A DNA stretch of 64,000 bases from Lachnospiraceae bacterium G41 (GTDB lineage: Bacteria > Bacillota > Clostridia > Lachnospirales > Lachnospiraceae), in assembly GCA_900100245.1 (NCBI GenBank), contig FNEU01000007.1, positions 62,001-126,000 on the forward strand, written 5' to 3'. Each line of letters begins with the position of its first letter. Position 1 is the first letter of the stretch. Position numbers and translations under genes: made by a program. A model generated the notes under the pieces. The model did not search any database, was not told the origin of the DNA, and worked only from the letters and a program-made list of their open reading frames with translations. Below are positions 2,377 through 36,358 of the stretch, piece by piece.

Positions 2377-3504
2377 TTGGATCAGAAAAAAACAGGAGAG
2401 TTCCTAAAAGAATTAAGAACCCAAAAACAAATGACACAGGAACAGGTGGCAGAGAGATTTAATGTCAGCTCAAGAACCGTTTCCAGATGGGAGACCGGCA
2501 GAAATATGCCTGATATTTCTTTGCTTACCGAAATAGCTGATTTTTATGAAGCTGACGTTAGAGAAATAATAGAAGGAGAAAGAAAAAGCGAGATGATGGA
2601 TAAGGAAATAAAAGACGTAGCCGACAAAATGGCGGATTACGCACACGAAGAAAGAGGAAAACTTTTAAAGGTTATACAGGTTATATCGATTATCGGAGTG
2701 ATTATTTCATTCATATCGATAATACTTCAGACGATAGGGTATCATAATCCTGAGAATTTATCAGTTGAAAGAACTCTGGCTTTACTGGCATCGTTAGCAG
2801 TACTTGTAATCATGTCCGTGACTACTTTATATGTAACGGGTCTTTTAAGAAAAATTACCAACAACAAAGTTCTGATGACGGTAATTATTGTGCTGACAGG
2901 CGTAATTTTGACTGTTAGTATAATGTGGATACTGGCGGCATACCTTGTTGTAGGAATGTTTGCGTTAATCTTTTATTCGGCGAAAATTAAGGTATACGAA
3001 GATGTCGCAGAATACAACGAATACATACACAATCCCAAGAATGGCGGAGAGTATCAGACCTGCAACGGAGAGATGTTTGAGATATTCCCTGAGTCGATAG
3101 AGGATCCTTCAAAGGTTGAGGAGTTTAAGTTCGTATATTACAATCCCTGGGATGCACAGTATATTACCTATCTCACGATAAATTATGATGAAGATGAATA
3201 TAATAAAGAAATAGCTCGTCTTCAGAACCTGGGAATTGAAGAATATAAAGATTTCTACAGTGTTTCGGATGAGCCGTCGGGATATGACCTCGTTGCAATG
3301 AATTCGGATCCTTATTACGGCTTTGTTTATGCGTTGATTCCTGAAAACGAAGAAGAATCGGGCAAAATCACATATGTCGGAATATGGTTCTGCAATTACT
3401 TCCTGGATTTGGACATAAAAGATTATGTTCCAAACGAATACCTCCTAAAAGGATTTGACGCAACAGAAGGCAATCCGTACAGACAATCAAATATATATGA
3501 TTAA
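2377..3504 (+). CDS. XRE-family HTH regulator with membrane anchor
   Basis: DNA-binding regulator tethered to the membrane. I choose the TTG at 2377 because AAAGGAGG (2361-2368) lies 8 bp upstream and the protein then begins directly with the HTH; an upstream GTG at 2251 lies inside the preceding terminator. Residues ~5-60 are a Cro/CI-type HTH (RTQKQMTQEQVAERFNVSSR, then RWETGRNMPDISLL). Three to four hydrophobic segments follow at about residues 95-215, then a ~150-residue soluble C-terminal region rich in Asp, Glu and Tyr with no domain I recognise. HTH-plus-membrane proteins of this layout are common one-component sensors in Clostridia. Ligand unknown. Confidence 0.85.
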   Translation: MDQKKTGEFLKELRTQKQMTQEQVAERFNVSSRTVSRWETGRNMPDISLLTEIADFYEADVREIIEGERKSEMMDKEIKDVADKMADYAHEERGKLLKVIQVISIIGVIISFISIILQTIGYHNPENLSVERTLALLASLAVLVIMSVTTLYVTGLLRKITNNKVLMTVIIVLTGVILTVSIMWILAAYLVVGMFALIFYSAKIKVYEDVAEYNEYIHNPKNGGEYQTCNGEMFEIFPESIEDPSKVEEFKFVYYNPWDAQYITYLTINYDEDEYNKEIARLQNLGIEEYKDFYSVSDEPSGYDLVAMNSDPYYGFVYALIPENEEESGKITYVGIWFCNYFLDLDIKDYVPNEYLLKGFDATEGNPYRQSNIYD

Positions 3505-8860: not shown

Positions 8861-10258
8861 GTTTAATTTTTCGTATAGTGATTCGGTTTCTTCCGCCGTA
8901 TTTTCGCTTATGTAGTAAACTTTATCCGAAGTCACGATTTTGATGTATTTTCCGGCCTGGGGATTTAGGAAGAGTTTGCAGCCGGCTTCGCCGTTTACAG
9001 TCCAGGTACCTTTTGCGACATTTTCCATTCCGGTACCGGCGGTTCTTGAAGCTCTAAGATCTTTGAAGTTGCCGTACTCAACCGAAGTGATGTCTGATTT
9101 GGCGATTTTGTATTCATCCGTCAGTTGATGGCATATTACGTAATCGTTGTTTTCGATGATTCTTATGGGGGTGACGGACATAAGTCCGATCCAGATTAAA
9201 GCAACAATCGAACCCACAATTGTCAGAACGCCAAAGCCTGTGATGATTTTTCCGACAGGATGAGCCATATTTATCGTCATTCCGACACCCACTCTTTTAT
9301 CGACATTAAGCTTTCTGTCGTTGGGGTTGTAATAAAACATGCCTAAAATCCAGTGGTCATCGTCATCTTCGACAAAGTTTGTTTCTTCTTTATAATATCT
9401 TTTATCAATAGCCAGTTTCTTAAATGCGTAAATAAACGTAACCGTAATCATAACCAGTATATATACTCCCAAAAGCAGAACAAGCAAAATCTCCGCATTT
9501 AAGAAAAGCGCACAAGCCAGAACTATAAGTGCAAAAATATTATTTAACCAGGAAAAGAAAATCATATAATCTGAAAAAATCTTTTTTCTTGAGCGGTTGT
9601 AGTTTGCATTAATATCGCTGTTTTCGCTGATAACTTCATTTCTGGAATTATCGATCATAAAAGCAATAGGCAGGATAATAAAGTTTGTGGCAATAATCGA
9701 TGCAACTAATGCTGTGCAGACAAACGCACCCTCAAAAACCTTAAGAGGTAAAAGTAATCCTAAGTCAATAAGCACTGCCAAAACTATAATCAGTAAACCA
9801 ACAATGTTTGCTCCAAAAAGGAGAGGTTTGTTCAAAGCGTGAATATTGGAGGCGTTTTTAAGATCTGCATAAAGAACACCTTCGTTAACTATCCCCAGGC
9901 ATTTTTTGTATTTTTTCAGTTCTGAATTGCCGAGTGCATAAGGAATACAAATGACAACCAAAGCAATGTAAACAAATACAGTCCAGACAATCATTTTAAT
10001 TGTCAGGCCCGGCACAAAGAGAAGCAGCGTTGAAATCACAAGGATTCCGATTAAAATAGCAGTGCCCTGTTTTTTATGAGTACCAACAAGAATATCAATA
10101 AATTTTGCACTTTTATCCACCTTAAATTCAGGTCTGTTGTTAACTCCGAAGATTCGCTGCTTTTTCTGCCAGTTCTTCGGATACATCATTACATAAAGCA
10201 AAACCACCGAAGGAACAAGGCATATAAACATTATTAATCCAAGTAAAAAATCATTCAT
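8858..10258 (-). CDS. DUF5808/DUF1648-like polytopic membrane protein with PH-like tail
   Basis: 466 residues. I place the start at ATG 10258, one base after the gntR stop and preceded by TGGGG; the longer frame overlaps gntR. About nine hydrophobic segments span residues 1-370. A conserved YPKNWQKKQRIFGVNNRPEF loop and WILGMFYYNPNDRKL are typical of DUF5808 regions found beside YtrA-type GntR regulators. The last ~90 residues form a soluble beta-rich domain, probably PH-like. Function unknown; family context suggests membrane stress or sensing. Third gene of a CPBP-GntR-membrane operon. Confidence 0.75.
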   Translation of the reverse strand: MNDFLLGLIMFICLVPSVVLLYVMMYPKNWQKKQRIFGVNNRPEFKVDKSAKFIDILVGTHKKQGTAILIGILVISTLLLFVPGLTIKMIVWTVFVYIALVVICIPYALGNSELKKYKKCLGIVNEGVLYADLKNASNIHALNKPLLFGANIVGLLIIVLAVLIDLGLLLPLKVFEGAFVCTALVASIIATNFIILPIAFMIDNSRNEVISENSDINANYNRSRKKIFSDYMIFFSWLNNIFALIVLACALFLNAEILLVLLLGVYILVMITVTFIYAFKKLAIDKRYYKEETNFVEDDDDHWILGMFYYNPNDRKLNVDKRVGVGMTINMAHPVGKIITGFGVLTIVGSIVALIWIGLMSVTPIRIIENNDYVICHQLTDEYKIAKSDITSVEYGNFKDLRASRTAGTGMENVAKGTWTVNGEAGCKLFLNPQAGKYIKIVTSDKVYYISENTAEETESLYEKLN

Positions 10259-10259
10259 A

Positions 10260-10625
10260 TCATTTACCCCACATTTCATCAATCAGTTTGTTAAAATCTT
10301 CTTTTGCAATACCGGAAATCTTCGCTTCCGAAATTATTCGCCTTAATTCGTCAGCATTTTCATTGCTTAAGGACTTTGACTGGTTTATTTCCATACGGAC
10401 TCTGGCACCGTTTTTTCTGTCGGTTAAAATGTAGCCTTCGGATTTTAATATCTGATAGGCTTTGCTGACGGTCATCGTATTGATGCCGATTTCCATGGAC
10501 AGCGCCCTGACCGTAGGAAGCTGCTCCCCGGCCGATAATTCGCCCGAGGAGATTCCCATTACTATTTGATTTCTGATCTGCATATATATCGGAATGTCCG
10601 AATATTCGTTAATTCTAATAATCAT
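10260..10625 (-). CDS. GntR-family regulator, YtrA subfamily
   Basis: 121 residues: an N-terminal winged HTH (IPIYMQIRNQIVMGISSGEL, LPTVRALSMEIGINTMTVS, then YILTDRKNGARV) and a short ~45-residue helical tail, the YtrA layout rather than the larger FadR/HutC types. YtrA proteins repress ABC-transporter or membrane-protein operons with palindromic operators. Its probable operator is the perfect inverted repeat at 11630-11652 in the promoter of this operon. Gene order is CPBP protease, this regulator, membrane protein, with a 1-bp gap to the last. Confidence 0.92.
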   Translation of the reverse strand: MIIRINEYSDIPIYMQIRNQIVMGISSGELSAGEQLPTVRALSMEIGINTMTVSKAYQILKSEGYILTDRKNGARVRMEINQSKSLSNENADELRRIISEAKISGIAKEDFNKLIDEMWGK

Positions 10626-10659
10626 TTCGAATTCTCGTTTCTTTTATGATTAATATTAT

Positions 10660-11592
10660 TTATGCCTCTGTTACTTCTTCGCTCTTTGTACCTTTTTTCG
10701 TAAGGACGATGACAGCGATGATTATGGAAAGGATAAGTAAAGGTATTCCGCCGATGGCTCCGTTATAGAACGGTCCGAGTATCTGAAGTTTTCCGAAACG
10801 CTCAGCATTGTTGACATTTGTGAATAAACATACAAATGATCCGGCGTTTACGGCACCGTGTAAAAGAGACGGATACCAGATACATTTTGATTTATCATAA
10901 ACAACTTCTTCAATCAAACCGAGTGCAATGGTAAAGACTGAAAATACGATAAGTCCGATATAGGGATGTCCGAAGTATTCGGTACCGTATTCGTAGCCAA
11001 CAAGGATAATTACCGGGAAATGGAAAGCGCCCCAGATTAATCCGCCGACTATCCATGTCGGAACCTTGCCCATGCTCTTGTTAAGTTCGGGATAAAGGAA
11101 TCCTCTCCAGCCGACCTCTTCGCCGAGTGCCAAGACCATATTAATTAAAGGGGCATAAGTTATGGCTTGAATTATTTGAATAAAGGTTAAAAGATTTAAT
11201 GATATGCCCACACTCTTAAGCTGTTGTTCAAGATCCAGTCCCTCGGGAAGTGTACTCGCAATATAGGAGCCTGTCAAATCAAACATATCGGGGAAGATAA
11301 GGAAAAAGAGTGCTCCGCCAAGGGATGCGATAATTGCGGGTCCGAACCAGCAGAGCGGAATCAGCCATGCAACCTTTTTAAATCTGGGAATGAAATTGAT
11401 GCCTTTAAAATTTCCTTTTGCAAAAAGAGCTCCGAAAAACGGCGTATACATTAATATCATGAGTAATATTGTAAAAAGAATCTGTCCCATACCGCCGGGA
11501 TTCTTAATTGCTAAGATTGAAGCAACGATTTGAATTGCGTATGCGCTGACAAATACAAATATTAAGAATTTTATAACCTGTTTTTTATTCAT
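10660..11592 (-). CDS. CPBP family intramembrane metalloprotease
   Basis: 310 residues, about eight TM segments. The CPBP/Abi signature is present: ALGEEVGWRGFLYPEL (Glu-Glu-x3-Arg) and later GGLIWGAFHFPVIIL with His, followed by a third motif around SLLHGAVNAGSF. Family members are membrane endopeptidases related to Rce1 and often confer bacteriocin self-immunity or process prenyl-like substrates. It is the first gene of the GntR-controlled operon and has a good ribosome site (AGGAGG). The operon partner regulator and membrane protein follow. Confidence 0.9.
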   Translation of the reverse strand: MNKKQVIKFLIFVFVSAYAIQIVASILAIKNPGGMGQILFTILLMILMYTPFFGALFAKGNFKGINFIPRFKKVAWLIPLCWFGPAIIASLGGALFFLIFPDMFDLTGSYIASTLPEGLDLEQQLKSVGISLNLLTFIQIIQAITYAPLINMVLALGEEVGWRGFLYPELNKSMGKVPTWIVGGLIWGAFHFPVIILVGYEYGTEYFGHPYIGLIVFSVFTIALGLIEEVVYDKSKCIWYPSLLHGAVNAGSFVCLFTNVNNAERFGKLQILGPFYNGAIGGIPLLILSIIIAVIVLTKKGTKSEEVTEA

Positions 11593-11793: not shown

Positions 11794-12688
11794 AAAACTC
11801 GAAAAATCCACGAAAAATGAATTCAGAAAAGGAAAGAGCCAGTTTGTAGCCGTAATGACGCTCGAGGAGTGGAAAAATACAAAGGAAGATTTCGAAATGG
11901 GCATCGACCTTGATATCGACCCCAATGAAATATATTCCACCAAGGCAATTGTCAACTACGATTCGCTGACAGGTTGTTTCAGCATTCCGGACCGCGACGA
12001 TTTCGAGAAATATTATGATTTTCTTTTTGCCCTCGACGAAAAGGGTATTGTTTTCATTGATGATCACGAGTATGTAAACGGTATTATAGACAGAATTCAG
12101 AAAACCAAAAAATGGAGATTTCCGAGCCTCGAGAGATTTATATACGATTTTCTTGAAGAGATAGTCAGACATGACAGAGAGCTCATCGAAAAATACGAAA
12201 AAGAACTTACCGAAATGGAAGATCTTATCGCAAAAGACAGCGGCGAAAAATTGTCCGACAGAGCCAATGACATTCGAAGCGACATAAGAGATTTAAGAGT
12301 TCATTACGAACAGCTTCTCGATTTTTCGCAGGAACTCGAAGAAAATGAAAACAATTTCTTTACACATGAAAACTTAAGATATTTCAAACTTTTTACGAGC
12401 CGTATTGAAAGAATGCGTGACGAAACCATGGCCGTTTCAGATCATGCCCTTCAAATCAGAGATATCTACAAGGCACATCTTGATATTAAGCAGAACCGAA
12501 TTATGACACTGCTTACCATCGTTACCACCATTTTTACACCGCTTACGGTTATCGCCGGCTGGTACGGAATGAACTTTAAATATATGCCCGAGTTAAATTC
12601 AAAACTCGGCTATCCCATCGTCATCATCGTCAGTCTTTTCATTGTTGTCGGAAGCCTGATTATATTTAAATTAAAAAAATGGCTGTAA
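11774..12688 (+). CDS. corA: CorA family Mg2+/divalent cation transporter
   Basis: 304-residue inner-membrane channel for Mg2+ (family also takes Co2+/Ni2+). The N-terminal ~240 residues are the cytosolic funnel, with a long charged helix around residues 130-235. Two C-terminal TM helices follow, with the signature YGMN at the end of TM1 (GWYGMNFKYMPELNS), the selectivity loop. Lys-rich C-terminus KLKKWL. Length is normal. A -10-like TATAAT lies at 11721-11726, and a possible leader ORF overlaps the start. Confidence 0.93.
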   Translation: MYYLINEKLEKSTKNEFRKGKSQFVAVMTLEEWKNTKEDFEMGIDLDIDPNEIYSTKAIVNYDSLTGCFSIPDRDDFEKYYDFLFALDEKGIVFIDDHEYVNGIIDRIQKTKKWRFPSLERFIYDFLEEIVRHDRELIEKYEKELTEMEDLIAKDSGEKLSDRANDIRSDIRDLRVHYEQLLDFSQELEENENNFFTHENLRYFKLFTSRIERMRDETMAVSDHALQIRDIYKAHLDIKQNRIMTLLTIVTTIFTPLTVIAGWYGMNFKYMPELNSKLGYPIVIIVSLFIVVGSLIIFKLKKWL

Positions 12689-24595: not shown

Positions 24596-27127
24596 ATGAG
24601 ATTAGCGTTTTCTACTAACGGATGGGATGATTTTGACTGGTCGGATTTTTATGTAACAGCCAAGGATCTCCAGTTCTCGGGTATCGAAATTCACGATATT
24701 AAAAGAGAAGTTTTTTCAGGCAAAAACAGACCTTTTAATAATGAGAACATTGTTGAGACGGCCAGAAAAATAGCTCAGATGGGTCTTGAGATTCCCGTAA
24801 TCGATGCTGTCTGCAACATAGCAGACCCTGACAAAGTACAGGAAAACATCGAAGACATCAGGGAATATATCAGAGTTGCAAAGATTTTAAAATGCCCTGC
24901 AATCAGACTTCGCGCAGGAAAGAGCAACGACGATACCAATACATCTGACGATCCCGTTATCGAATGTATCAAAGCTACCTACAGAGAAGCAGACAATAAC
25001 GGCGTTTCTCTTTTAATAGAAACCGTAGGACCTTACGCAAATACTGAGAGACTTCGTAATGTATTAAACGTTTTCGCAAGAGATAATGTCGCAGCATGCT
25101 GGGATATTCATCATACGGTAAGATACGGCAACGAAACCGCCGAGCAGTCTATTCAGAACCTCGGTGCATACGTACTTCACGTACATATCAAGGATTCCGA
25201 TGTCGTTGACGGCAAGATTGAGTACAGACTCATGGGTGAAGGTTCACTTCCCATTGATGATTTGATGGGTGCGCTTCGTTCAATCAATTACGATCACTAT
25301 GTTTCATTTGAATGGATTCCCGCCTGGCTTGAAGAATTATCAGACCCCGGAATCGTGTTCCCTCACTTTATAAACTTCATGTCTCAGTACGAGCAGGAAG
25401 CAAAAGTGGTTGGTCAGACACTTTATTCCAACAAGGCCGGCACAGGTAAGTTTATCTGGAAAAAAGAAGAGATTATCGACAAGACCTTCCCTCAGGTACT
25501 CGATAAAATGGTTGAAGAATTCCCCGATCAGTACGCTTTCAGATATACAACACTTGATTACACAAGAACATATGCCGAATTCAGAGATGATGTGGATGAG
25601 TTTGCAAAGTCCTTAATCGCACTCGGCGTAAAGCAGGGTACACATGTTGCAATCTGGGCAACCAATATTCCTCAGTGGTACTTATCCTTCTGGGCTTGCT
25701 GCCGTATAGGTGCAGTTTTGGTTACCATGAATACAGCTTACAAGATTCATGAGGCTGAGTATCTTTTACGAAACTCCGATACCCATACCCTTGTTATGAT
25801 TGACGGTTTCAGAGATTCAAATTATGCAGAGATTATCCAGGAACTTTGTCCCGAATTAAAAGACAATGTTCCCGGCAAAGCACTTCACTGCAAACGCCTT
25901 CCTTTCCTTCGTCACGTAATCAACGTAACGAGCAGACAGCCCGGCTGTCTTACATGGGAAGAAGCATTAGAGCTCGGAAAGAATGTTCCCATCGAGGAAG
26001 TTTACAGACGTTCATCTTTGGTTGACAAGCATGATGTCTGCAACATGCAGTATACATCGGGTACAACAGGCTTCCCCAAGGGAGTTATGCTTACTCACTA
26101 CAATGTAGTTAATAACGGAAAATGCATCGGCGACAGAATGGACTTATCAACTGCCGATCGAATGATGATTCAGGTTCCCATGTTCCACTGCTTCGGAATG
26201 GTACTCGCCATGACGGCATCCATGACACATGGTGTAACTTTGTCACCGATTCCTTACTTCTCGACCAAGCCTGCGCTTGCATGTATCAATCAGGAAAAGA
26301 TTACATGTTTTCACGGCGTACCTACAATGTTTATCGCAATGCTCGAGCATGAAGACTTCCCTAAGACCGACTTCTCACATATGAGAACAGGTATCATGGC
26401 CGGAAGCCCTTGCCCTATCGCAGTTATGAGAGACGTTGTTGAAAAGATGCATATGACGGAAATCACCATCGTTTACGGTCAGACCGAAGCATCACCCGGA
26501 TGTACGATGTCCACAACCGACGATCCTCTGGAAGTCAGAGTTACCACAGTCGGCGGACCTTTGCCCGGCGTAGAATGTAAGATCATTGATCCTGAAACCG
26601 GTGAAGAATGTCCCGACGGTGTAAACGGCGAGTTCGTAGCACGTGGTTACAACATCATGAAAGGTTACTATAAGATGCCTCTTGCAACAGCACAGGCAAT
26701 TGATGCAGACGGATGGCTTCATACCGGAGACCTTGCGTGCAGAACACCCGAAGGCAACTTTAAGATTACAGGCCGTTTGAAAGACATGATCATCCGTGGC
26801 GGTGAAAATATTTATCCTAAGGAAATCGAAGAATTCATATACACCTATGACAAGGTTAAAGACGTACAGGTAATCGGTGTTCCCGACGAAGCACTCGGCG
26901 AGGAAATCCTTGCAGCGGTAGTTCCCAAGGAAGGCGAGACAATTACCGAAGAAGAAATCAAAAAATACGTATACGACCACATGGCTAAACATAAAGTTCC
27001 CAAGTACGTCGATATCGTAGACGGCTTCCCGATGAACGCCGCAGGAAAGATCTTAAAATACAAGATGAGAGAGGCAGCAGTTGAGAAATACAACTTAAAG
27101 AAAGCCGACAGCATCGAAACAGCATAA
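24596..27127 (+). CDS. Fusion: sugar-isomerase-like TIM barrel + acyl-CoA synthetase
   Basis: 843 residues, one continuous frame. Residues ~1-275 are an AP-endonuclease-2/xylose-isomerase-type TIM barrel (LAFSTNGWDDFDWSDFY, LLIETVGPYANTERL, CWDIHHTVRYG, VLHVHIKDSD, YVSFEWIPAW) with the family metal-ligand Glu/Asp/His residues in place. From ~284 it is an AMP-forming acyl-CoA synthetase: P-loop YTSGTTGFPKG (486), YGQTEASPG, HTGDLA, GRLKDMIIRGGENIYPKE, and the C-terminal catalytic Lys in NAAGKILKYK (Lys818). The ligase makes acyl-CoA from a carboxylic acid, ATP and CoA; the barrel may process the same or a related compound. It lies 37 bp after the pseudo-synthase and shares its leucine T-box. 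Confidence 0.9.
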   Translation: MRLAFSTNGWDDFDWSDFYVTAKDLQFSGIEIHDIKREVFSGKNRPFNNENIVETARKIAQMGLEIPVIDAVCNIADPDKVQENIEDIREYIRVAKILKCPAIRLRAGKSNDDTNTSDDPVIECIKATYREADNNGVSLLIETVGPYANTERLRNVLNVFARDNVAACWDIHHTVRYGNETAEQSIQNLGAYVLHVHIKDSDVVDGKIEYRLMGEGSLPIDDLMGALRSINYDHYVSFEWIPAWLEELSDPGIVFPHFINFMSQYEQEAKVVGQTLYSNKAGTGKFIWKKEEIIDKTFPQVLDKMVEEFPDQYAFRYTTLDYTRTYAEFRDDVDEFAKSLIALGVKQGTHVAIWATNIPQWYLSFWACCRIGAVLVTMNTAYKIHEAEYLLRNSDTHTLVMIDGFRDSNYAEIIQELCPELKDNVPGKALHCKRLPFLRHVINVTSRQPGCLTWEEALELGKNVPIEEVYRRSSLVDKHDVCNMQYTSGTTGFPKGVMLTHYNVVNNGKCIGDRMDLSTADRMMIQVPMFHCFGMVLAMTASMTHGVTLSPIPYFSTKPALACINQEKITCFHGVPTMFIAMLEHEDFPKTDFSHMRTGIMAGSPCPIAVMRDVVEKMHMTEITIVYGQTEASPGCTMSTTDDPLEVRVTTVGGPLPGVECKIIDPETGEECPDGVNGEFVARGYNIMKGYYKMPLATAQAIDADGWLHTGDLACRTPEGNFKITGRLKDMIIRGGENIYPKEIEEFIYTYDKVKDVQVIGVPDEALGEEILAAVVPKEGETITEEEIKKYVYDHMAKHKVPKYVDIVDGFPMNAAGKILKYKMREAAVEKYNLKKADSIETA

Positions 27128-28313: not shown

Positions 28314-29603
28314 TTATTTATTTTTAAAATATTTTAGTTTAATGTTGGTTCTGTAAAAATCCTTGGCCGTACATCCTGCTCTTCCGCCGCCGGCGCAGGC
28401 ACATGCACAAGCACAGGCGCAGGCACATGCACACGAGGAAGAATGACTGTGATTTCGTCCGCCGCCTCTGGAGCCTGAATTGGACATATAATATGACGAG
28501 AACGATGTACGGTGCGGTACGGTTTCGCTTGTTACATATATATAGGTGTTGGGCGAAGAAGAAAGAGGATATGCTCCCGCTCTTTTTCGTTTTATAATCT
28601 CGTCTTTATAATCTTTATATTTTTTCGGAATACGTGTTTCTTCTACTTTGGTTTTCTTTTTGATTAAATTCGTTGAGCAGTACTGACAGGTTTTCTTGCC
28701 TTCAGCACATAAAGCCCCGCAGTTGGGACATTTTTCAAAATACTCGACGATGGTGCGGGTGATTTTCTTTCTGGTTCCGTTAAAGCCCGAACTTTTTCTC
28801 CAGCCGATATAGTTTTTAAGATAATCGATACCTATCAGGATTATGAAGACAGAGGCTATAGCACCAAAAACAAATAAGGGACCTATCCATTCGCGATATT
28901 TACTCTGCTTAATCTCTTTGCTTGTATCAAATCCGAAAGCATCATTGGGATAGACGACATCGATAGTGACCTTATCTTTCTTTTTAAGAGGAGCTCTCCA
29001 GATAAAGTAACCTATATCTGTATCATTATCATATCCTGAAGTAGCACGAATAGCTTTATTGCTTTTCCAGTAAATACTCAGCATGTCGACATCGATTTCA
29101 TCAAACCATCCGGGAGTAAAGCGATATACCGTTTCCCCTTCGGTTTCCATGTTCATCTGATACATATAATCCTGGGTAAAAGAAAAACTTAAGTCGACAG
29201 TTTCTCCGGCCTTGTATTCTCTGTCCAGATCGATACGTATATATGAACCGCCGACACCCGAGTATGCTATTTTTTTAATGCAGTCGGAATGAGCTTCAAT
29301 ATTACTGCAATGCTGATTGGGGATTCCGATTTTTACCCATGTAAGAGGACCGTCGGTTGTGGAATCGAGCACCTTCCATACGATATGATAATGCATATTC
29401 AGAGTGGCATCATCGTTGACATTCACCCAGATGGTATAAGAAAGAATTTCGTCTAAGTCTTTGGCGTGAATATGCATCGGCAAAAAAACTGCTATTGCCA
29501 GCATTAAGATGAGTGAAAGAACCGTTTTTGAAATAAAAGATGTGATAGTAAAGTGTTTTTCAGTCATTTGCCATTCCCAAAATTTTGTCCCCATGATTTT
29601 CAT
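28314..29603 (-). CDS. DUF2207-like membrane protein with (Cys-Ala)7 tail
   Basis: 429 residues. AAGAGGTGA precedes ATG 29603. Order: charged N-terminus, hydrophobic signal/TM (~20-45), extracytoplasmic DUF2207-like domain (~46-245; KDLDEILSYTIWVNVNDDAT), TM (~246-270), then a cytosolic part with a zinc ribbon (CPNCGA, CQYCST, ~295-320). The tail holds SRGGGRNHSHSSS, then seven Cys-Ala dipeptides (391-404), GGGRAGC and the conserved TAKDFYRTNIKLKYF end. Codons in the repeat vary synonymously (TGT/TGC, GCA/GCC/GCT). Divergent from the radical SAM gene next door, which may modify the cysteines; inference. Paralogue of the protein at 31138. Confidence 0.85.
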   Translation of the reverse strand: MKIMGTKFWEWQMTEKHFTITSFISKTVLSLILMLAIAVFLPMHIHAKDLDEILSYTIWVNVNDDATLNMHYHIVWKVLDSTTDGPLTWVKIGIPNQHCSNIEAHSDCIKKIAYSGVGGSYIRIDLDREYKAGETVDLSFSFTQDYMYQMNMETEGETVYRFTPGWFDEIDVDMLSIYWKSNKAIRATSGYDNDTDIGYFIWRAPLKKKDKVTIDVVYPNDAFGFDTSKEIKQSKYREWIGPLFVFGAIASVFIILIGIDYLKNYIGWRKSSGFNGTRKKITRTIVEYFEKCPNCGALCAEGKKTCQYCSTNLIKKKTKVEETRIPKKYKDYKDEIIKRKRAGAYPLSSSPNTYIYVTSETVPHRTSFSSYYMSNSGSRGGGRNHSHSSSCACACACACACACAGGGRAGCTAKDFYRTNIKLKYFKNK

Positions 29604-29720
29604 AAAAAAATCACCTCTTCAATATTATCATAAAAATCACAAATAGGGTGCTTTTTGATACTAAAATATGGTAAAATCATTTTGTTTGGAATTGTTAATA
29701 AAGTATTTTAAGGGGACAGC

Positions 29721-31145
29721 ATGAAAAGTAAAAAAAGAGAACTTGAATATGCGCGCAATCATTTTAATGAAGTACATCATACAACGCTAAATCCCGAAGG
29801 ACCGGGCGTTGTTCGTATTCACTTGATTCCGCCGGCAATAGAGGATGATTATATCGGCCCGAGTATTGCGATTATAAACGGACAGGATATCATTCCCGTT
29901 AACACAGCATGGAGCATTCTTTTAACAGAGTTTATCGAAGAAACCAATCAGTATGACGGCCGTGAAATAAACGAGGAAGATTTCAAAACAATCATTGAAA
30001 ATACATGCAAGAAAACAGGCAAAGTATATCCGATGATTCCGAAGTCCGTATTCAAAAAAGACCTTTACAGAATAATGAACACCTTCAAGCAGGTGGCTTA
30101 TCGCGAACCGGTTGATGAAGAAATCGGATATATGAGCATCGGCGATTATGCGCCTTTTATGAAGGCTCCGCATCGTATGGACCTCATGGTTTCCGCCATG
30201 GAAAAAGACGGTAAATGGAACTGCAATCAGCGCTGCATTCACTGCTACGCAGCAGGCCAGAAAAATGCGAACGAAAAAGAACTTTCAACCGATGACTGGA
30301 AAAAGATAATCAACAAATGCCATGAAATCGGTATTCCACAGCTGACATTTACAGGTGGCGAACCCACCATGAGAGACGATCTCTTAGATCTCATCGACAG
30401 TGCGAAATGGTTTGTTACAAGACTTAATACCAACGGAGTTCTTTTAACCGAAGAGTACTGCAACAAACTAAAAGAAGTGTCTCTCGACAGCATGCAGATA
30501 ACCTTTTATTCGTCTGACGAAAAGATTCACAACGAACTTGTCGGAGCAGAAAACTATGAAAAAACCGTTGCGGGAATTAAGAATGCCCTTAAAGCAGGCA
30601 TTAGTGTAAGCATCAATACTCCGCTTTGCACCACAAACCGCGATTATAAAAAGACACTTGAATTCTTACATGAACTCGGAGTTTTGTATGTAACATGTTC
30701 GGGTCTTATAACGACCGGAAATGCCGAAAAAGAAAGATCCGAAAAACTTCAGCTTGAAACTGACGAGATAAAAGACATATTAAAGCAGGCAGTTGAATAC
30801 TGTGCTGAGAACGGAATGGAAATAAGCTTCACATCACCCGGCTGGGTTGAGAATTCCTTCTGCGACGAACTTGGAATCAATCCTCCTACCTGTGGCGCAT
30901 GTCTTTCAAATATGGCAATCACGCCTTCAGGAAAAGCAGTTCCGTGTCAGAGCTGGCTCTCCGATGATGCTTTAGGCGATTTCTTAAGCGATGAGTGGGA
31001 GAAAATCTGGAACAGCGAAAAGTGCGTGGAAAGAAGAGACTACAGCGCACTGATGGAAGGAAAATGTCCGCTTAGAAAAGGCTGTGGCAACTGCTCGGAA
31101 AAAGGCAGTATAGAAAAGGATAAGGAGGAGAATGCAAATGAATAA
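29721..31145 (+). CDS. Radical SAM/SPASM maturase-like enzyme
   Basis: 474 residues. Residues ~1-110 may be a PqqD-like winged-helix recognition element (IAIINGQDIIPVNTAWSILL, an idea from pattern only). The radical SAM core begins at CNQRCIHC (Cys168, 172, 175), which binds the [4Fe-4S] cluster that cleaves SAM, with LTFTGGEPTMRDD following. The C-terminal SPASM domain supplies cysteines for auxiliary clusters: PPTCGACLSNMAITPSG, PCQSW, and KCPLRKGCGNCSE. This is the architecture of enzymes that modify peptides or proteins (thioether or other crosslinks). Flanked on both sides by paralogous Cys-Ala-tail proteins; overlaps the downstream one by 8 bp. Those tails are the likely substrate; inference. 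Confidence 0.92.
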   Translation: MKSKKRELEYARNHFNEVHHTTLNPEGPGVVRIHLIPPAIEDDYIGPSIAIINGQDIIPVNTAWSILLTEFIEETNQYDGREINEEDFKTIIENTCKKTGKVYPMIPKSVFKKDLYRIMNTFKQVAYREPVDEEIGYMSIGDYAPFMKAPHRMDLMVSAMEKDGKWNCNQRCIHCYAAGQKNANEKELSTDDWKKIINKCHEIGIPQLTFTGGEPTMRDDLLDLIDSAKWFVTRLNTNGVLLTEEYCNKLKEVSLDSMQITFYSSDEKIHNELVGAENYEKTVAGIKNALKAGISVSINTPLCTTNRDYKKTLEFLHELGVLYVTCSGLITTGNAEKERSEKLQLETDEIKDILKQAVEYCAENGMEISFTSPGWVENSFCDELGINPPTCGACLSNMAITPSGKAVPCQSWLSDDALGDFLSDEWEKIWNSEKCVERRDYSALMEGKCPLRKGCGNCSEKGSIEKDKEENANE

Positions 31146-32394
31146 GAAATATTCTCTTTTATCCTCTATTGTTACAAAAATTGTTTTTGCGCTTCTTTTA
31201 GTTTTAACGATAGGTTTGTTTTTACCCATCCATTCCCAAGCTAAGGATTTGGATGAAATCGTAAACTACCAAATAAGGGTTGATGTCAACGAAGATGCAA
31301 CTCTTCATATGATTTATCATATTGACTGGAAGGTACTTGATTCCACAAGCGAAGGTCCTCTTTCGTGGGTGCTTATCGGAATTCCGAATAACAAATACAA
31401 GAGCTACAAGGCTCTTTCAAAATGCATTAAAACAATGTCCTATTCGAGCACTGAAGGAGCGCTTAAGATTACTCTTGACAGAAATTATAAGGCCGGCGAA
31501 ATAGTTCCCATCGAATTCGAACTCGTTCAGGACTATATGTATCAGATGGATATGCTGACCGAGGGCGAAACGGTTTATGAATTTACGCCCGGCTGGTTTG
31601 ATGATATCAAAGTCGACAACCTTGAGATTTACTGGAATTCGGACAAAGCAATATCCCACACTCCCGCAAGCGATAATTATAACAATTATTTTGCGTGGAA
31701 AACCTCTTTGGGCAAGGGCCAGAAATACAAAGTAAGCGTAACTTACCCAAACGATGCCTTTAAATTCGACACTTCAAAAAAGATAAAGAAGAACAATGCA
31801 AAATTTCATAAATTCCTTTCTAACCTGTGTCCGATAATGATGGTAGTAATGTTTTTCTTTGGAACATTTGCACTTTATTATTTCTTCAGTTTCTTAGGAT
31901 GGGTTTCAAGCTCGGGCTTTAAAGGAACCTCTACCAAAGTCGTTCGTACCGTTGTCGAGTATATGACCAACTGTCCCAACTGCGGGGCTCCCCGTCAGGA
32001 AGGGAAAGAAGTCTGCTCATACTGCGGCACCAATATGATCAAGTCAAAGACCAAGGTTGAAGAAGAAAAAGTACCTGAAAAGTTATCCAAATTCAAGGAT
32101 GAAATCTTGGGTAACAAAGAAAACGGTACATATAAACTTAAATCTTCACCCAATACATACGTTCATGTATCGACCATCGTGGTTCCTCACAGAACTTCAT
32201 TCTCTTCTTATATGAAGAGCCAGTCCTCGTCACGTGGAGGAGGAAGAAGCGGTGGCGGATGCGCACATTCTTCATGTGCCTGCGCCTGTGCGTGTGCATG
32301 TGCCTGCGCCGGCGGCGGAAGAGCCGGATGTACGGCAAAGGATTTCTACAAGACAAATGTCAAACTGAAATATTTTAAAAAGAAAAACAAATAA
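31138..32394 (+). CDS. DUF2207-like membrane protein with (Cys-Ala)6 tail
   Basis: 418 residues. ATG 31138 is 9 bp from AAGGAGG and overlaps the radical SAM stop by 8 bp; ATG 31132 is too close. Domain plan mirrors the protein at 28314-29603: signal/TM (~10-32), DUF2207-like ectodomain, TM (~225-255), zinc ribbon CPNCGA/CSYCGT (~280-301), a SSRGGGRSGGGCAHSS lead-in, six Cys-Ala dipeptides (380-391), then GGGRAGC and TAKDFYKTNVKLKYF. Counting the lead-in Cys375 and Cys398, both paralogues have eight cysteines in the tail. The tail is predicted cytosolic, where the radical SAM enzyme could reach it. Function unknown. Confidence 0.87.
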   Translation: MNKKYSLLSSIVTKIVFALLLVLTIGLFLPIHSQAKDLDEIVNYQIRVDVNEDATLHMIYHIDWKVLDSTSEGPLSWVLIGIPNNKYKSYKALSKCIKTMSYSSTEGALKITLDRNYKAGEIVPIEFELVQDYMYQMDMLTEGETVYEFTPGWFDDIKVDNLEIYWNSDKAISHTPASDNYNNYFAWKTSLGKGQKYKVSVTYPNDAFKFDTSKKIKKNNAKFHKFLSNLCPIMMVVMFFFGTFALYYFFSFLGWVSSSGFKGTSTKVVRTVVEYMTNCPNCGAPRQEGKEVCSYCGTNMIKSKTKVEEEKVPEKLSKFKDEILGNKENGTYKLKSSPNTYVHVSTIVVPHRTSFSSYMKSQSSSRGGGRSGGGCAHSSCACACACACACAGGGRAGCTAKDFYKTNVKLKYFKKKNK

Positions 32395-32806: not shown

Positions 32807-33523
32807 ATGTCTGAACAGGAAAGAAAATTTTTGGAAATAGTTGATTTAAAGAAAGGTTTCGGCAGTGGAGATACGAGGCAGGAAGTATTAAAAGGCATGA
32901 ACTTTACGGTATCAAAAGGCGAGTTCTGTGTACTGCTCGGACCCTCGGGAAGCGGAAAGTCCACACTGCTTAACATCATCGGCGGAATCGATAATCCGGA
33001 CTCGGGCTACATCTCGATAAACGGAGACAAACTTCGCGATATGGGCGAAAAAGGCCTTACAAAATACAGAAGAAAACATCTCGGATATGTATTCCAGATG
33101 TACAACCTCATTCCAAATCTTAATGTCAAAGAAAACATTGAAGTCGGTGCATATCTTTCCGACAACCCCCTCGAAATAGACGATTTACTTGAGACCCTCG
33201 GTCTTTATAAACACAGATACAAACTTCCGAATCAGTTATCCGGAGGTCAGCAGCAGCGTGTTTCAATCGGTCGTGCCATCGTCAAAAACCCCGATATCTT
33301 ACTTTGCGACGAGCCTACGGGCGCGCTTGATTACAATACATCCAAAGAAATCTTAAAACTCATTGAAGACGTAAACAAAAAATACGGCAACACAATCATC
33401 ATGGTTACGCACAATGAGGAAATAAAAAAGATGGCAGATCACGTCATCAAATTAAGAGACGGAATGGTTCGTCACAACGATATGAACGAAAACAAGATTT
33501 CGGCTACCGAACTTGACTGGTAG
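32807..33523 (+). CDS. ABC transporter ATP-binding protein (MacB/LolD type)
   Basis: 238 residues. Walker A GPSGSGKST (~44-52), Q-loop FQMYNLIPNL, signature LSGGQQQRVSIGRAI, Walker B LLCDEPTGALD, H-loop VTHNEE. The sequence type (EVLKGMNFTVSKGEFCVLLG) is the MacB/LolD/BceA group that pairs with FtsX-like permeases, here the next gene. AAGGAGG is 5 bp before the ATG. A long regulated leader lies upstream. Confidence 0.95.
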   Translation: MSEQERKFLEIVDLKKGFGSGDTRQEVLKGMNFTVSKGEFCVLLGPSGSGKSTLLNIIGGIDNPDSGYISINGDKLRDMGEKGLTKYRRKHLGYVFQMYNLIPNLNVKENIEVGAYLSDNPLEIDDLLETLGLYKHRYKLPNQLSGGQQQRVSIGRAIVKNPDILLCDEPTGALDYNTSKEILKLIEDVNKKYGNTIIMVTHNEEIKKMADHVIKLRDGMVRHNDMNENKISATELDW

Positions 33524-33574
33524 CAAATAAACCGTCGCCCTGAAAAGATGCATGGTGGCGGAAAGGATGAAAAT

Positions 33575-36358
33575 ATGAGAAACGAAAACAAAAAGAAAAA
33601 AAGAATAATAAATCCCCTAATAAAAAGAGTTCCCAAAGAACTGATCGGCGAGTGGAGAAAATATCTGGTAATCTTCCTTCTCCTCTCGATGACCATCGGA
33701 TTTGTATCGGGAATGTATGTGGCCAACCACAGCATGTTAATCTCGATAGACCGCCTTAACCATGAGAACAAACTCGAGGACGGACATTTCGAACTCGAAG
33801 AAAAGGCGAGCGACGAGTTCATAAAAGTAATCGAGTCCGGCGAGAAGGTCGATTTAAGAGCATACTTCATCAATGAAGCTCACAAGGAAATCGATGAAAA
33901 AATCGAAGAAGAGGCTCCAAAGACCCTAAAAGAAGAAGTCGAAAAAGAAGTAAGAAAAACCGTAAAAGAAGAAATCGTAAAGAACGTGACGGATGCGGTA
34001 AAAGAAGCCTTAGCGCCTTACGCTGATTTTATGAGCGAAGAGGAAAAACAGGCTCAGATCGATGAAGCCGTGGAAAAAGCACTTGAAGAAAACTACGAAA
34101 AGACGGTTGAAGAAGTGCTTCCCGACGCAATAGACGAAGCATTAAAATCCAAAGAATATCTGGATGAAAAAGAAAAGGCAAGAAAAGAAGCATACGAAGA
34201 AGCCGAAGATGAAATAAACGAAGAATTCGACAAGCAGGATGCGAAGAAATCCAAAGCCACACTCGAGGCTGAGAAAAATTTCAAAGCAACACCGGTTGTT
34301 TTATACGAGAACTTTTATAAAGATGTAACCGAAGACAACGACCTCGACGGCAATTCGGACGGCAAAGTCAGAATTTACGCATACGAAGATTACATCAATA
34401 TGGCGAGCTTCAACGAAGGAAGAATGCCCGAGAACGAAAATGAAATCGCCATCGACAGAATGCACGCAAACAACAGCGGACTAAAGGTCGGCGATAAGAT
34501 AAATGTCGGCGGCAAAGAGTTTACGATTACAGGTCTTTTAGCATACGTAAATTACGCGACGCTTCATGAGAAGAACACGGATTTTATGTTTGATGCGATA
34601 AGCTTCGACGTTGCAATGCTTACCCCCGAAGGGTGGGACAGTGTAAACGGCAGAGTTCATTACAACTACGCATTCAAATATGTTGATTCGTTTTCAAATG
34701 AGTCCGAGCAGAAAAAGCTTTCGGATGATTTTATGAGCGCTCTCATAACACAGACCATAAAAGAAGAAAACGACCTTCAGGACTACGTTCCGGAATATCT
34801 TAATCAGGCGGTACATTTTGCCCCCGACGATATGGGTTCGGATAAGGAAATTGGAGGGGTATTGCTTTATATCCTGGTTCTTGTGCTTGGCTTTGTATTT
34901 GCACTGACCATCATGTCGACGATTACCAAAGAATCAATGACCATCGGAACACTTCGTGCATCGGGTTATACCAAGGGCGAAATGATAAGACATTACATGG
35001 CGACACCTGTATTTGTAACGCTTTTTGCGGCAATCGTCGGAAATGTTTTAGGATATACGCTCTTTAAAAACATCGTTGTAGATATGTATTTTAACAGTTA
35101 CAGCCTTCCCAAATACGAGACAATCTGGTATTACGAGGCATTTGTGAAGACAACCATCGTTCCGGTTATACTGATGATACTTATCAATTTCGTAACCGTT
35201 GCATATATGCTTCGTCTCTCACCCCTTAGATTTATAAGAAAAGATCTTAAAACAAGCAAACGTAAAAAGGCAATGAGACTTCCTAGATTTAAATTTCTCG
35301 CAAGATTCAGATTAAGAGTCTTTTTGCAGAACATACCAAGCTATCTCGTTCTTTTCGTCGGTATTTATTTTGTGGTATTCCTTATGTCTTTTGCATTCGG
35401 ACTTCCCACCACGCTTGATAATTATCAGGCTCATGCAACCGATGATATGTTTGCAAAATATCAGTATGTGCTGAAAACCACGGAAGATGATGACGGAAAC
35501 GATATAACGACAAAGGCAGAAAGTGCCGAGAAATTCAGCATGGAAACTCTCTATACAATCGATGGCAGTAGAGTAAACGAACCAATCAGTATTTACGGTC
35601 TGGATGAGGAGAGCAAACTTATCCCGTTAAACGGAAAAGTTTCGGGTAACGAAGCCCTGATTTCAAGTTCGTATGCCGATAAATTCGGTTTAAAGGCAGG
35701 CGATACAGTAACGCTTAAAGCAAGATATACGGACGATGAGTACACTTTTAGGATAGTCGGTAATTATGATTATATCAGCGGTCTCGGACTCTTCATGTCA
35801 CTCGACGGATTCAATGAGATATTCGGCAATCCCGAGGGTTCGTTTAACGGATTTCTTTCGGATGAAGAGATAAAAGACATCGACGCCAAGTACATCGCAA
35901 TGACGATAACTGAAGACGATATATTGAAAGTATCGAATCAGCTTAATCATTCGATGGGCAATTATATGAGTTACTTTAAAGTAATCTGCCTGGCATTCGC
36001 ATTTATTCTTATATACCTTTTGACCAAGGTAATAATCGAAAAGAACGAAAACGCAATTTCGATGGTAAAAATACTCGGTTACTATAACGGCGAAATAGCT
36101 TCGCTCTACATTTTAACAACAACCATTGTTGTAATAATATCATCAATTCTTTCGACATTTCTGGCTACTAAGTCACTCATACTTGTCTGGAACATCATCC
36201 TTTACAGGATGGACGGTTGGCTTCCGGCATACGTTCCTTTTATGACATATGTGTACATGGTACTGATGGTCATCGCCGCATACCTTGTTGTAATGGCAAT
36301 TGACTACCGCAGAATCAAAAAAGTGCCCATGGATCAGGCACTTAAGAATGTAGAATAA
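33575..36358 (+). CDS. FtsX/MacB-like permease with a large coiled-coil insert
   Basis: 927 residues. GAAAGGA puts the start at ATG 33575. TM1 is at ~27-47, then a long extracytoplasmic region containing about 140 residues of Glu/Lys heptad repeats (~residues 85-225, EEVEKEVRKTVKEEI and similar), then the MacB-like periplasmic-core-type domain. Three TM helices (FtsX domain) at ~420-560, a second extracytoplasmic domain, and a second FtsX domain near the C-terminus (YLVVMAIDYRRIKKVPMDQA). Typical of Gram-positive mechanotransmission exporters; cargo unknown. The coiled coil probably reaches through the wall or contacts a partner. Confidence 0.9.
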   Translation: MRNENKKKKRIINPLIKRVPKELIGEWRKYLVIFLLLSMTIGFVSGMYVANHSMLISIDRLNHENKLEDGHFELEEKASDEFIKVIESGEKVDLRAYFINEAHKEIDEKIEEEAPKTLKEEVEKEVRKTVKEEIVKNVTDAVKEALAPYADFMSEEEKQAQIDEAVEKALEENYEKTVEEVLPDAIDEALKSKEYLDEKEKARKEAYEEAEDEINEEFDKQDAKKSKATLEAEKNFKATPVVLYENFYKDVTEDNDLDGNSDGKVRIYAYEDYINMASFNEGRMPENENEIAIDRMHANNSGLKVGDKINVGGKEFTITGLLAYVNYATLHEKNTDFMFDAISFDVAMLTPEGWDSVNGRVHYNYAFKYVDSFSNESEQKKLSDDFMSALITQTIKEENDLQDYVPEYLNQAVHFAPDDMGSDKEIGGVLLYILVLVLGFVFALTIMSTITKESMTIGTLRASGYTKGEMIRHYMATPVFVTLFAAIVGNVLGYTLFKNIVVDMYFNSYSLPKYETIWYYEAFVKTTIVPVILMILINFVTVAYMLRLSPLRFIRKDLKTSKRKKAMRLPRFKFLARFRLRVFLQNIPSYLVLFVGIYFVVFLMSFAFGLPTTLDNYQAHATDDMFAKYQYVLKTTEDDDGNDITTKAESAEKFSMETLYTIDGSRVNEPISIYGLDEESKLIPLNGKVSGNEALISSSYADKFGLKAGDTVTLKARYTDDEYTFRIVGNYDYISGLGLFMSLDGFNEIFGNPEGSFNGFLSDEEIKDIDAKYIAMTITEDDILKVSNQLNHSMGNYMSYFKVICLAFAFILIYLLTKVIIEKNENAISMVKILGYYNGEIASLYILTTTIVVIISSILSTFLATKSLILVWNIILYRMDGWLPAYVPFMTYVYMVLMVIAAYLVVMAIDYRRIKKVPMDQALKNVE

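Follow-up and report, generated by a model that had tools for sequence, protein, structure and literature searches.

Gene layout at the locus

We analysed a 64,000-nucleotide stretch of the Lachnospiraceae bacterium G41 genome (2.59 Mb; contig FNEU01000007.1, positions 62,001 to 126,000), referred to here as the window, in which a gene for a radical S-adenosylmethionine (SAM) enzyme, P0002, lies between two paralogous genes for membrane proteins, P0001 and P0003, that each carry a run of alternating cysteine and alanine near the C-terminus. Open reading frames (ORFs) are present where an initial annotation had placed them, with one membrane-protein gene divergent from the enzyme gene across a gap of 117 nt and the other overlapping its end. 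The tails of six or seven Cys-Ala units followed by GGGRAGC that the annotation described were likewise found. A search of the genome with P0003 returned two matches only, P0001 and P0003 itself; the nearest named relatives at the locus are Lachnospiraceae metagenome-assembled genomes, several of rumen or abomasum origin. The features are as follows.

28314..29603, minus strand: tail membrane protein 1, P0001 (ORF, alignment, sequence reading)
28392..28433, minus strand: (Cys-Ala)7 repeat of P0001, residues 391-404
29721..31145, plus strand: enzyme P0002, with predicted RRE, radical SAM and SPASM regions (ORF, Pfam, profile comparison, structure model)
29775..30110, approximate limits, plus strand: putative PqqD-like (RRE) N-terminal region of P0002 (Pfam in relatives, structural alignment)
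30222..30245, plus strand: CNQRCIHC radical SAM cluster motif (C168, C172, C175), invariant in 60/60 aligned enzymes
30891..31067, plus strand: SPASM region, cysteines 391, 394, 409, 435 and 449 (Pfam, alignment)
31138..32394, plus strand: tail membrane protein 2, P0003; its ATG overlaps the enzyme stop by 8 nt
32275..32310, plus strand: (Cys-Ala)6 repeat of P0003, residues 380-391
32311..32331, plus strand: GGGRAGC motif after the P0003 repeat (sequence reading)

P0001 consists of a signal or transmembrane (TM) segment, a β ectodomain, a second TM segment, zinc-ribbon-like CxxC pairs, a Gly-rich linker and the (CA)7-GGGRAGC tail. It is 55% identical to P0003 over 411 aligned positions, and after the Cys-Ala repeat both proteins run on as GGGRAGCTAKDFY. 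The ectodomain has a β-domain fold like that of the M1 aminopeptidase N-domain or ribophorin I. The proposed DUF2207-like identity had to be given up, as there was no match to the Pfam family at E ≤ 1 for P0001 or P0003, nor at E ≤ 0.1 for five relatives. For the zinc ribbon, P0003 falls just below the Pfam cut-off (25.6 versus 27 bits), and P0001 gave no Pfam match, though CPNC and CQYC can be read in it by eye.

P0002 matches the Pfam radical SAM domain PF04055 at 87 bits (cut-off 29.5), with its CxxxCxxC motif present, and the SPASM domain PF13186 at 27.5 bits (3.9e-06; cut-off 21.5). The presence of an N-terminal PqqD-like peptide-recognition domain, equivalent to the recognition element (RRE) of enzymes that mature ribosomally synthesized and post-translationally modified peptides (RiPPs), is supported by matches to PF05402 in 9/9 relatives tested, five of them above the gathering score, and by a model of the window enzyme, to which VIA-align aligned SkfB from model residue 31 and SuiB from residue 23, so that the PqqD-like region is spanned. 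RRE domains bind precursor peptides.

The SPASM assignment stands in part. We aligned 60 enzymes: 21 from Clostridia (the window included), 21 from Chloroflexota, three from Actinomycetota and 15 from a related system, ACHS, that is described below. The first two cysteines of the canonical block CX2CX5CX3C are absent in 21/21 Clostridia rows and the third in 20/21; all three are present in every Chloroflexota, Actinomycetota and ACHS row. P0002 does not have the full canonical set, and has two other cysteines nearby (KGCGNC). The CNQRCIHC core and the PF13186 match agree with the initial annotation of a radical SAM/SPASM enzyme; the three missing cysteines do not.

Conservation of the tail and its pairing with the enzyme

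The initial annotation had argued from synonymous codon differences that selection on the repeat acts on the protein, and codon counts bore this out. The count used the 15-residue core CACACACAGGGR(A/V)GC, of which 33 in-frame Clostridia copies gave 25 distinct DNA sequences; loci L001, L002, L017, L028 and L029 had been excluded beforehand as duplicates, and other repeated copies were merged into the 25. In pairwise comparison these sequences differ by 1.6% at codon positions 1 and 2 and by 51% at position 3, and 22 copies from Chloroflexota and Actinomycetota gave 1.5% and 55% respectively. Because position 3 varies freely while positions 1 and 2 are near-fixed, it is the residues of the tail, not the DNA, that are conserved, and this is not due to chance. 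A functionless product of replication slippage would agree with the period-6 arrays that Tandem Repeats Finder reports at the tail repeats, but it is contradicted by the scrambling of synonymous positions while residues stay fixed across phyla, and we consider it exceedingly improbable.

The tails end in two ways. In all 24 Chloroflexota and Actinomycetota copies CACACAGCACACAGGGR is the exact end of the protein, every non-Clostridia tail read stopping at GCACACAGGGR, whereas Clostridia tail proteins go on past GGGR with AGC(S/T)-x-KDFY or a near variant. Three Clostridia genomes (G235, G310, G319) have the continuation VGCSERGYQVLHWL, and in an unrooted tree the corresponding enzymes fall into a clade of their own (support 100/99). 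HSS, VS or SS interrupts the repeat in a few tails. Membrane domains are kept together with the tail across phyla, and the membrane proteins are homologous between phyla. Tail-bearing frames that are apparently whole span 314-636 aa in the Clostridia, Chloroflexota and Actinomycetota sets, the shorter ones (G379, G235, G319, G626) being cut by a contig end, split by other ORFs or frame-shifted; the tail proteins are thus not short precursor peptides of leader plus core.

A tail profile found 11 of the 391 Clostridia genomes. The enzyme profile, run first on these 11 and on 19 tail-less genomes, scored 483-910 bits in ten tail genomes, 202 bits in G361, where a contig end cuts the gene, and at most 115 bits in the tail-less set. 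Over all 391 genomes it returned 35 at 1e-35, namely the 11 tail genomes, 16 at 160-204 bits and eight at 123-136 bits; the 11 genomes with the full-family enzyme are therefore the same 11 that have the tail, the G361 fragment (191 bits in this run) being assigned to the family by its position beside a tail gene. Among 350 Chloroflexota genomes, 21 have the tail and all 21 have the enzyme (373-478 bits) on the same contig, at most 0.7 kb away; the best score in 20 tested of the 329 tail-less genomes was 102.1 bits. Of 198 Actinomycetota genomes three have the tail, each with the enzyme adjoining; a fourth match (L110, G936) lay in an 84-aa frame that on reading contained no tail, and was removed.

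The enzyme is thus present in 35/35 tail genomes, and tails common in genomes without it, the outcome that would have spoken against the initial annotation, did not appear. Conversely, all 14 enzyme-bearing loci found in named genomes contain tail sequence, in L012 and L013 in another frame. A tail gene also lies on a different contig from the enzyme in G196, G235 and G379; in the first two the enzyme has part of the tail protein, or a copy of it, beside it, and in G379 it adjoins one of two tail genes. By sequence comparison, enzyme and tail are a dedicated pair across three phyla.

Action of the enzyme on the tails, as proposed, is in this way strongly, though indirectly, supported: given the strict pairing, the fused RRE-type domain and the fixed Cys-Ala-GGGR peptide, the tail is the likely substrate. 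An unmodified tail might instead bind metal or an Fe-S cluster as a store, sensor or electron relay, with the enzyme using it as a partner, or present in the operon for some unrelated reason. Thiolate ligation by CxC repeats is plausible, and the same protein has a zinc-ribbon-like part. The peptide-recognition domain and the 35/35 pairing in three phyla are hard to explain without tail processing, and we regard this alternative as quite unlikely.

Candidate modification of the tail

We consider it probable, with some reserve, that the two genes encode a two-component protein-modification system in which the enzyme modifies the Cys-Ala tail and the tail is retained on the membrane protein. The PqqD-like domain of the enzyme would grip the tail region, and a 5'-deoxyadenosyl radical would be used to modify the repeat, most likely by forming thioethers between the sulfurs of the cysteines and carbon atoms of residues close by; with Ala as acceptor these would be α-linked or lanthionine-like. 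Sulfur-to-carbon links are the simplest guess given the alternation of Cys and Ala. The modified tail would remain on the integral membrane protein, whose β domain would lie outside, and would serve as its rigid, or metal- or redox-active, cytosolic end. That no exporter or protease is linked to the pair throughout weakly suggests retention.

The reaction could be a different one, such as epimerisation, formation of C-C links, or conversion of Cys as in sulfatase maturation. SkfB (PDB 6efn), the top structural neighbour of P0002, is one of the SPASM enzymes that form thioethers at Cys, and Cys is the invariant alternating residue of the tail; both points speak, weakly, against other chemistry on the tail, which in our view is unlikely.

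Neighbouring genes bear on the fate of the tail. We compared them by recurrence over 25 Clostridia and 23 Chloroflexota or Actinomycetota loci, few being run against family libraries. The common unit in Clostridia is the enzyme with one or two tail genes only, and no other neighbour recurs throughout the 25 loci. Two genes downstream of P0003 in the window were named by eye.

32807-33523: ABC ATPase
33548-36358: large FtsX-like permease; a long insert close to its N-terminus is charged and resembles a coiled coil

They suit a reading in which the protein is a RiPP precursor with an oversized leader, the tail being modified and then freed, by cleavage at the Gly-rich linker, as a sactipeptide- or ranthipeptide-like product. 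Both families are also represented close to the pair in six near relatives (L003-L008), most tails printed have a Gly-rich stretch ahead of the repeat, a signal peptidase I-like gene (family 9, by eye) occurs in 8/23 non-Clostridia loci, and the structural neighbours of the enzyme are RiPP maturases. However, in Chloroflexota and in those Clostridia loci compared that are more distant, the tail gene has no ABC/FtsX pair beside it, and conservation of the membrane domains with the tail across phyla also argues against release. We judge this alternative unlikely.

Several observations, the ABC/FtsX pair among them, weigh against a bridged, retained, cytosolic tail. The second TM segment of P0003 has six Lys/Arg before it and two after, which does not favour a cytosolic tail, although that placement is favoured by the first hydrophobic segment and by the enzyme, itself presumably cytosolic; the cytosolic side is therefore a prediction from an ambiguous charge pattern. 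P0002 itself gave no PF05402 match in the Pfam scan. Since the SPASM cysteine set of Clostridia enzymes is reduced, their number of auxiliary clusters may be lower than in sactipeptide synthases. Finally, the pair seems to be decaying or misassembled in a few genomes, because the G235 enzyme has a stop within its profile match and tail genes are disrupted or out of frame in L012, L013, G319 and, apparently, G626.

At these irregular loci the tail stretch is out of frame with the membrane-protein gene in L012 (~12150-12280) and L013 (~3035-3150), at differing offsets, and seemingly likewise in L124 (G626; ~9430-11090); decay, recoding or assembly error may account for the mismatch. In L142 (G319) and L026 other ORFs, including one that resembles a transposase by eye, interrupt the tail gene, and the enzyme gene is open.

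In Chloroflexota the tail-protein and enzyme genes recur together with that of a zinc-ribbon-like membrane protein (family 6, 11 loci) and with a second enzyme-like gene. The last lies near the radical SAM gene in 20 of the 21 loci (L111-L131) and does not contain CxxxCxxC in any of the 20; its product may be a partner in binding or regulation. Methyltransferases of one class I family are encoded in 16/23 Chloroflexota and Actinomycetota loci. Elsewhere in the window, one long ORF (24596-27127) appears by eye to fuse a sugar-epimerase-type TIM barrel to an AMP-forming acyl ligase.

A mobile-element origin was rejected, there being no plasmid match at E ≤ 1e-20. Among viral contigs the exact tail pattern was unmatched and radical SAM matches were three and weak. 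The one phage record, an unverified and unannotated human faecal scaffold labelled Bacteriophage sp. (MT837216.1, L190), carries the pair, with an enzyme 51% identical to P0002 and a tail protein that contains CACACAGGGRAGCSVKDFY; it is probably mislabelled bacterial DNA.

Related systems and significance

The initial annotation knew of no similar design, a view that has to be softened. In 16 Clostridia genomes (L153-L168) a related radical SAM/SPASM enzyme directly follows a gene whose product ends in an ACHS/ACHD repeat and ACVSGGA(R/K), read in all 16 loci. The profile of the enzymes associated with Cys-Ala tails (CA enzymes) matches the ACHS enzymes only within residues 162-451, at 160-204 bits. 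In eight of the nine ACHS loci printed, a distinct frame of ~330-365 aa lies downstream, its product having hydrophobic segments and a PGFPPPEKQD-like start; in L168 a similar sequence lies inside a longer enzyme frame. The tree, unrooted between the two groups and built without L168 and the truncated G361 enzyme, places its 15 ACHS enzymes in a single clade (100/100), far from the CA enzymes. Of two ACHS enzymes tested, one matched PqqD weakly (14.2 bits), and the tail protein, the membrane protein and two enzymes gave no NCBIfam match above cut-off.

The two systems share a Cys-repeat C-terminus and a related enzyme, the ACHS product ending in GGA(R/K) with the enzyme immediately downstream and, in the loci printed, a membrane-protein-like gene next. 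They differ in that the ACHS tail protein has no TM segment by eye and its enzymes form their own clade.

Neither the window tail proteins nor the enzyme seem, from sequence comparison, to reach any curated family. The NCBIfam radical SAM families shown were all far below cut-off for the enzymes tested; for P0002 the scores were 53.4/400 bits for TIGR04340, 71.6/267.9 for TIGR03977 and 55/300 for rSAM_skfB. RiPP maturases are its fold neighbours, yet SkfB is only 18% identical, and the putative substrate of P0002 is a large membrane protein rather than a short peptide. Sactipeptide maturases differ from the Clostridia CA enzymes, in which the SPASM cysteines are reduced. The ACGX (TIGR04340) and His-Xaa-Ser (HxsC, TIGR03977) radical SAM enzymes, as their names indicate, pair with repeat-bearing substrates, whose units are other than Cys-Ala. 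The anaerobic sulfatase-maturating enzymes (anSME; PDB 4k36-4k39) are also of SPASM type and modify Cys within a full-size protein, but they are not known to have an RRE and their target is a single Cys in a short motif, not a repeat tail.

Radical SAM enzymes acting on repeats are therefore known already. One paper describes TVGG and Asp-Cys repeats as substrates, and TvgB as acting many times on a repeating motif to give a poly-cyclopropylglycine peptide; as presented there, TvgB differs in having a TVGG repeat in a peptide precursor, putative transporters and Val chemistry (PMC9062424). No open-licence PMC paper contains the strings CACACACAGGGRAGC or HSACHSAC, and no description of a Cys-Ala tail with a radical SAM enzyme was found in that literature at the level of titles and abstract beginnings. 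What appears to be new is a conserved membrane protein that bears a Cys-Ala tail and is accompanied by a dedicated enzyme family in three phyla, with no tested curated model above cut-off.

Searches for radical SAM peptide maturases usually look next to short precursors. In the RRE-Finder paper, genes of <150 aa were counted as probable precursors (PMC7470986); a full-size membrane protein substrate would be overlooked by such a count. It is an appreciable possibility, a little short of even, that the kept tail is a permanently crosslinked Cys-Ala rod, a protein-level modification outside the RiPPs that three phyla conserve, and that with ACHS it belongs to a wider class of Cys-repeat tails served by RRE-radical SAM enzymes. 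The two-gene Clostridia form is small, and the ACHS system suggests that the design recurs. A pair that travels together in three phyla suggests an undescribed chemical modification of a membrane-protein tail and, if the tail is indeed crosslinked and kept, this would be a new way to build a membrane protein.
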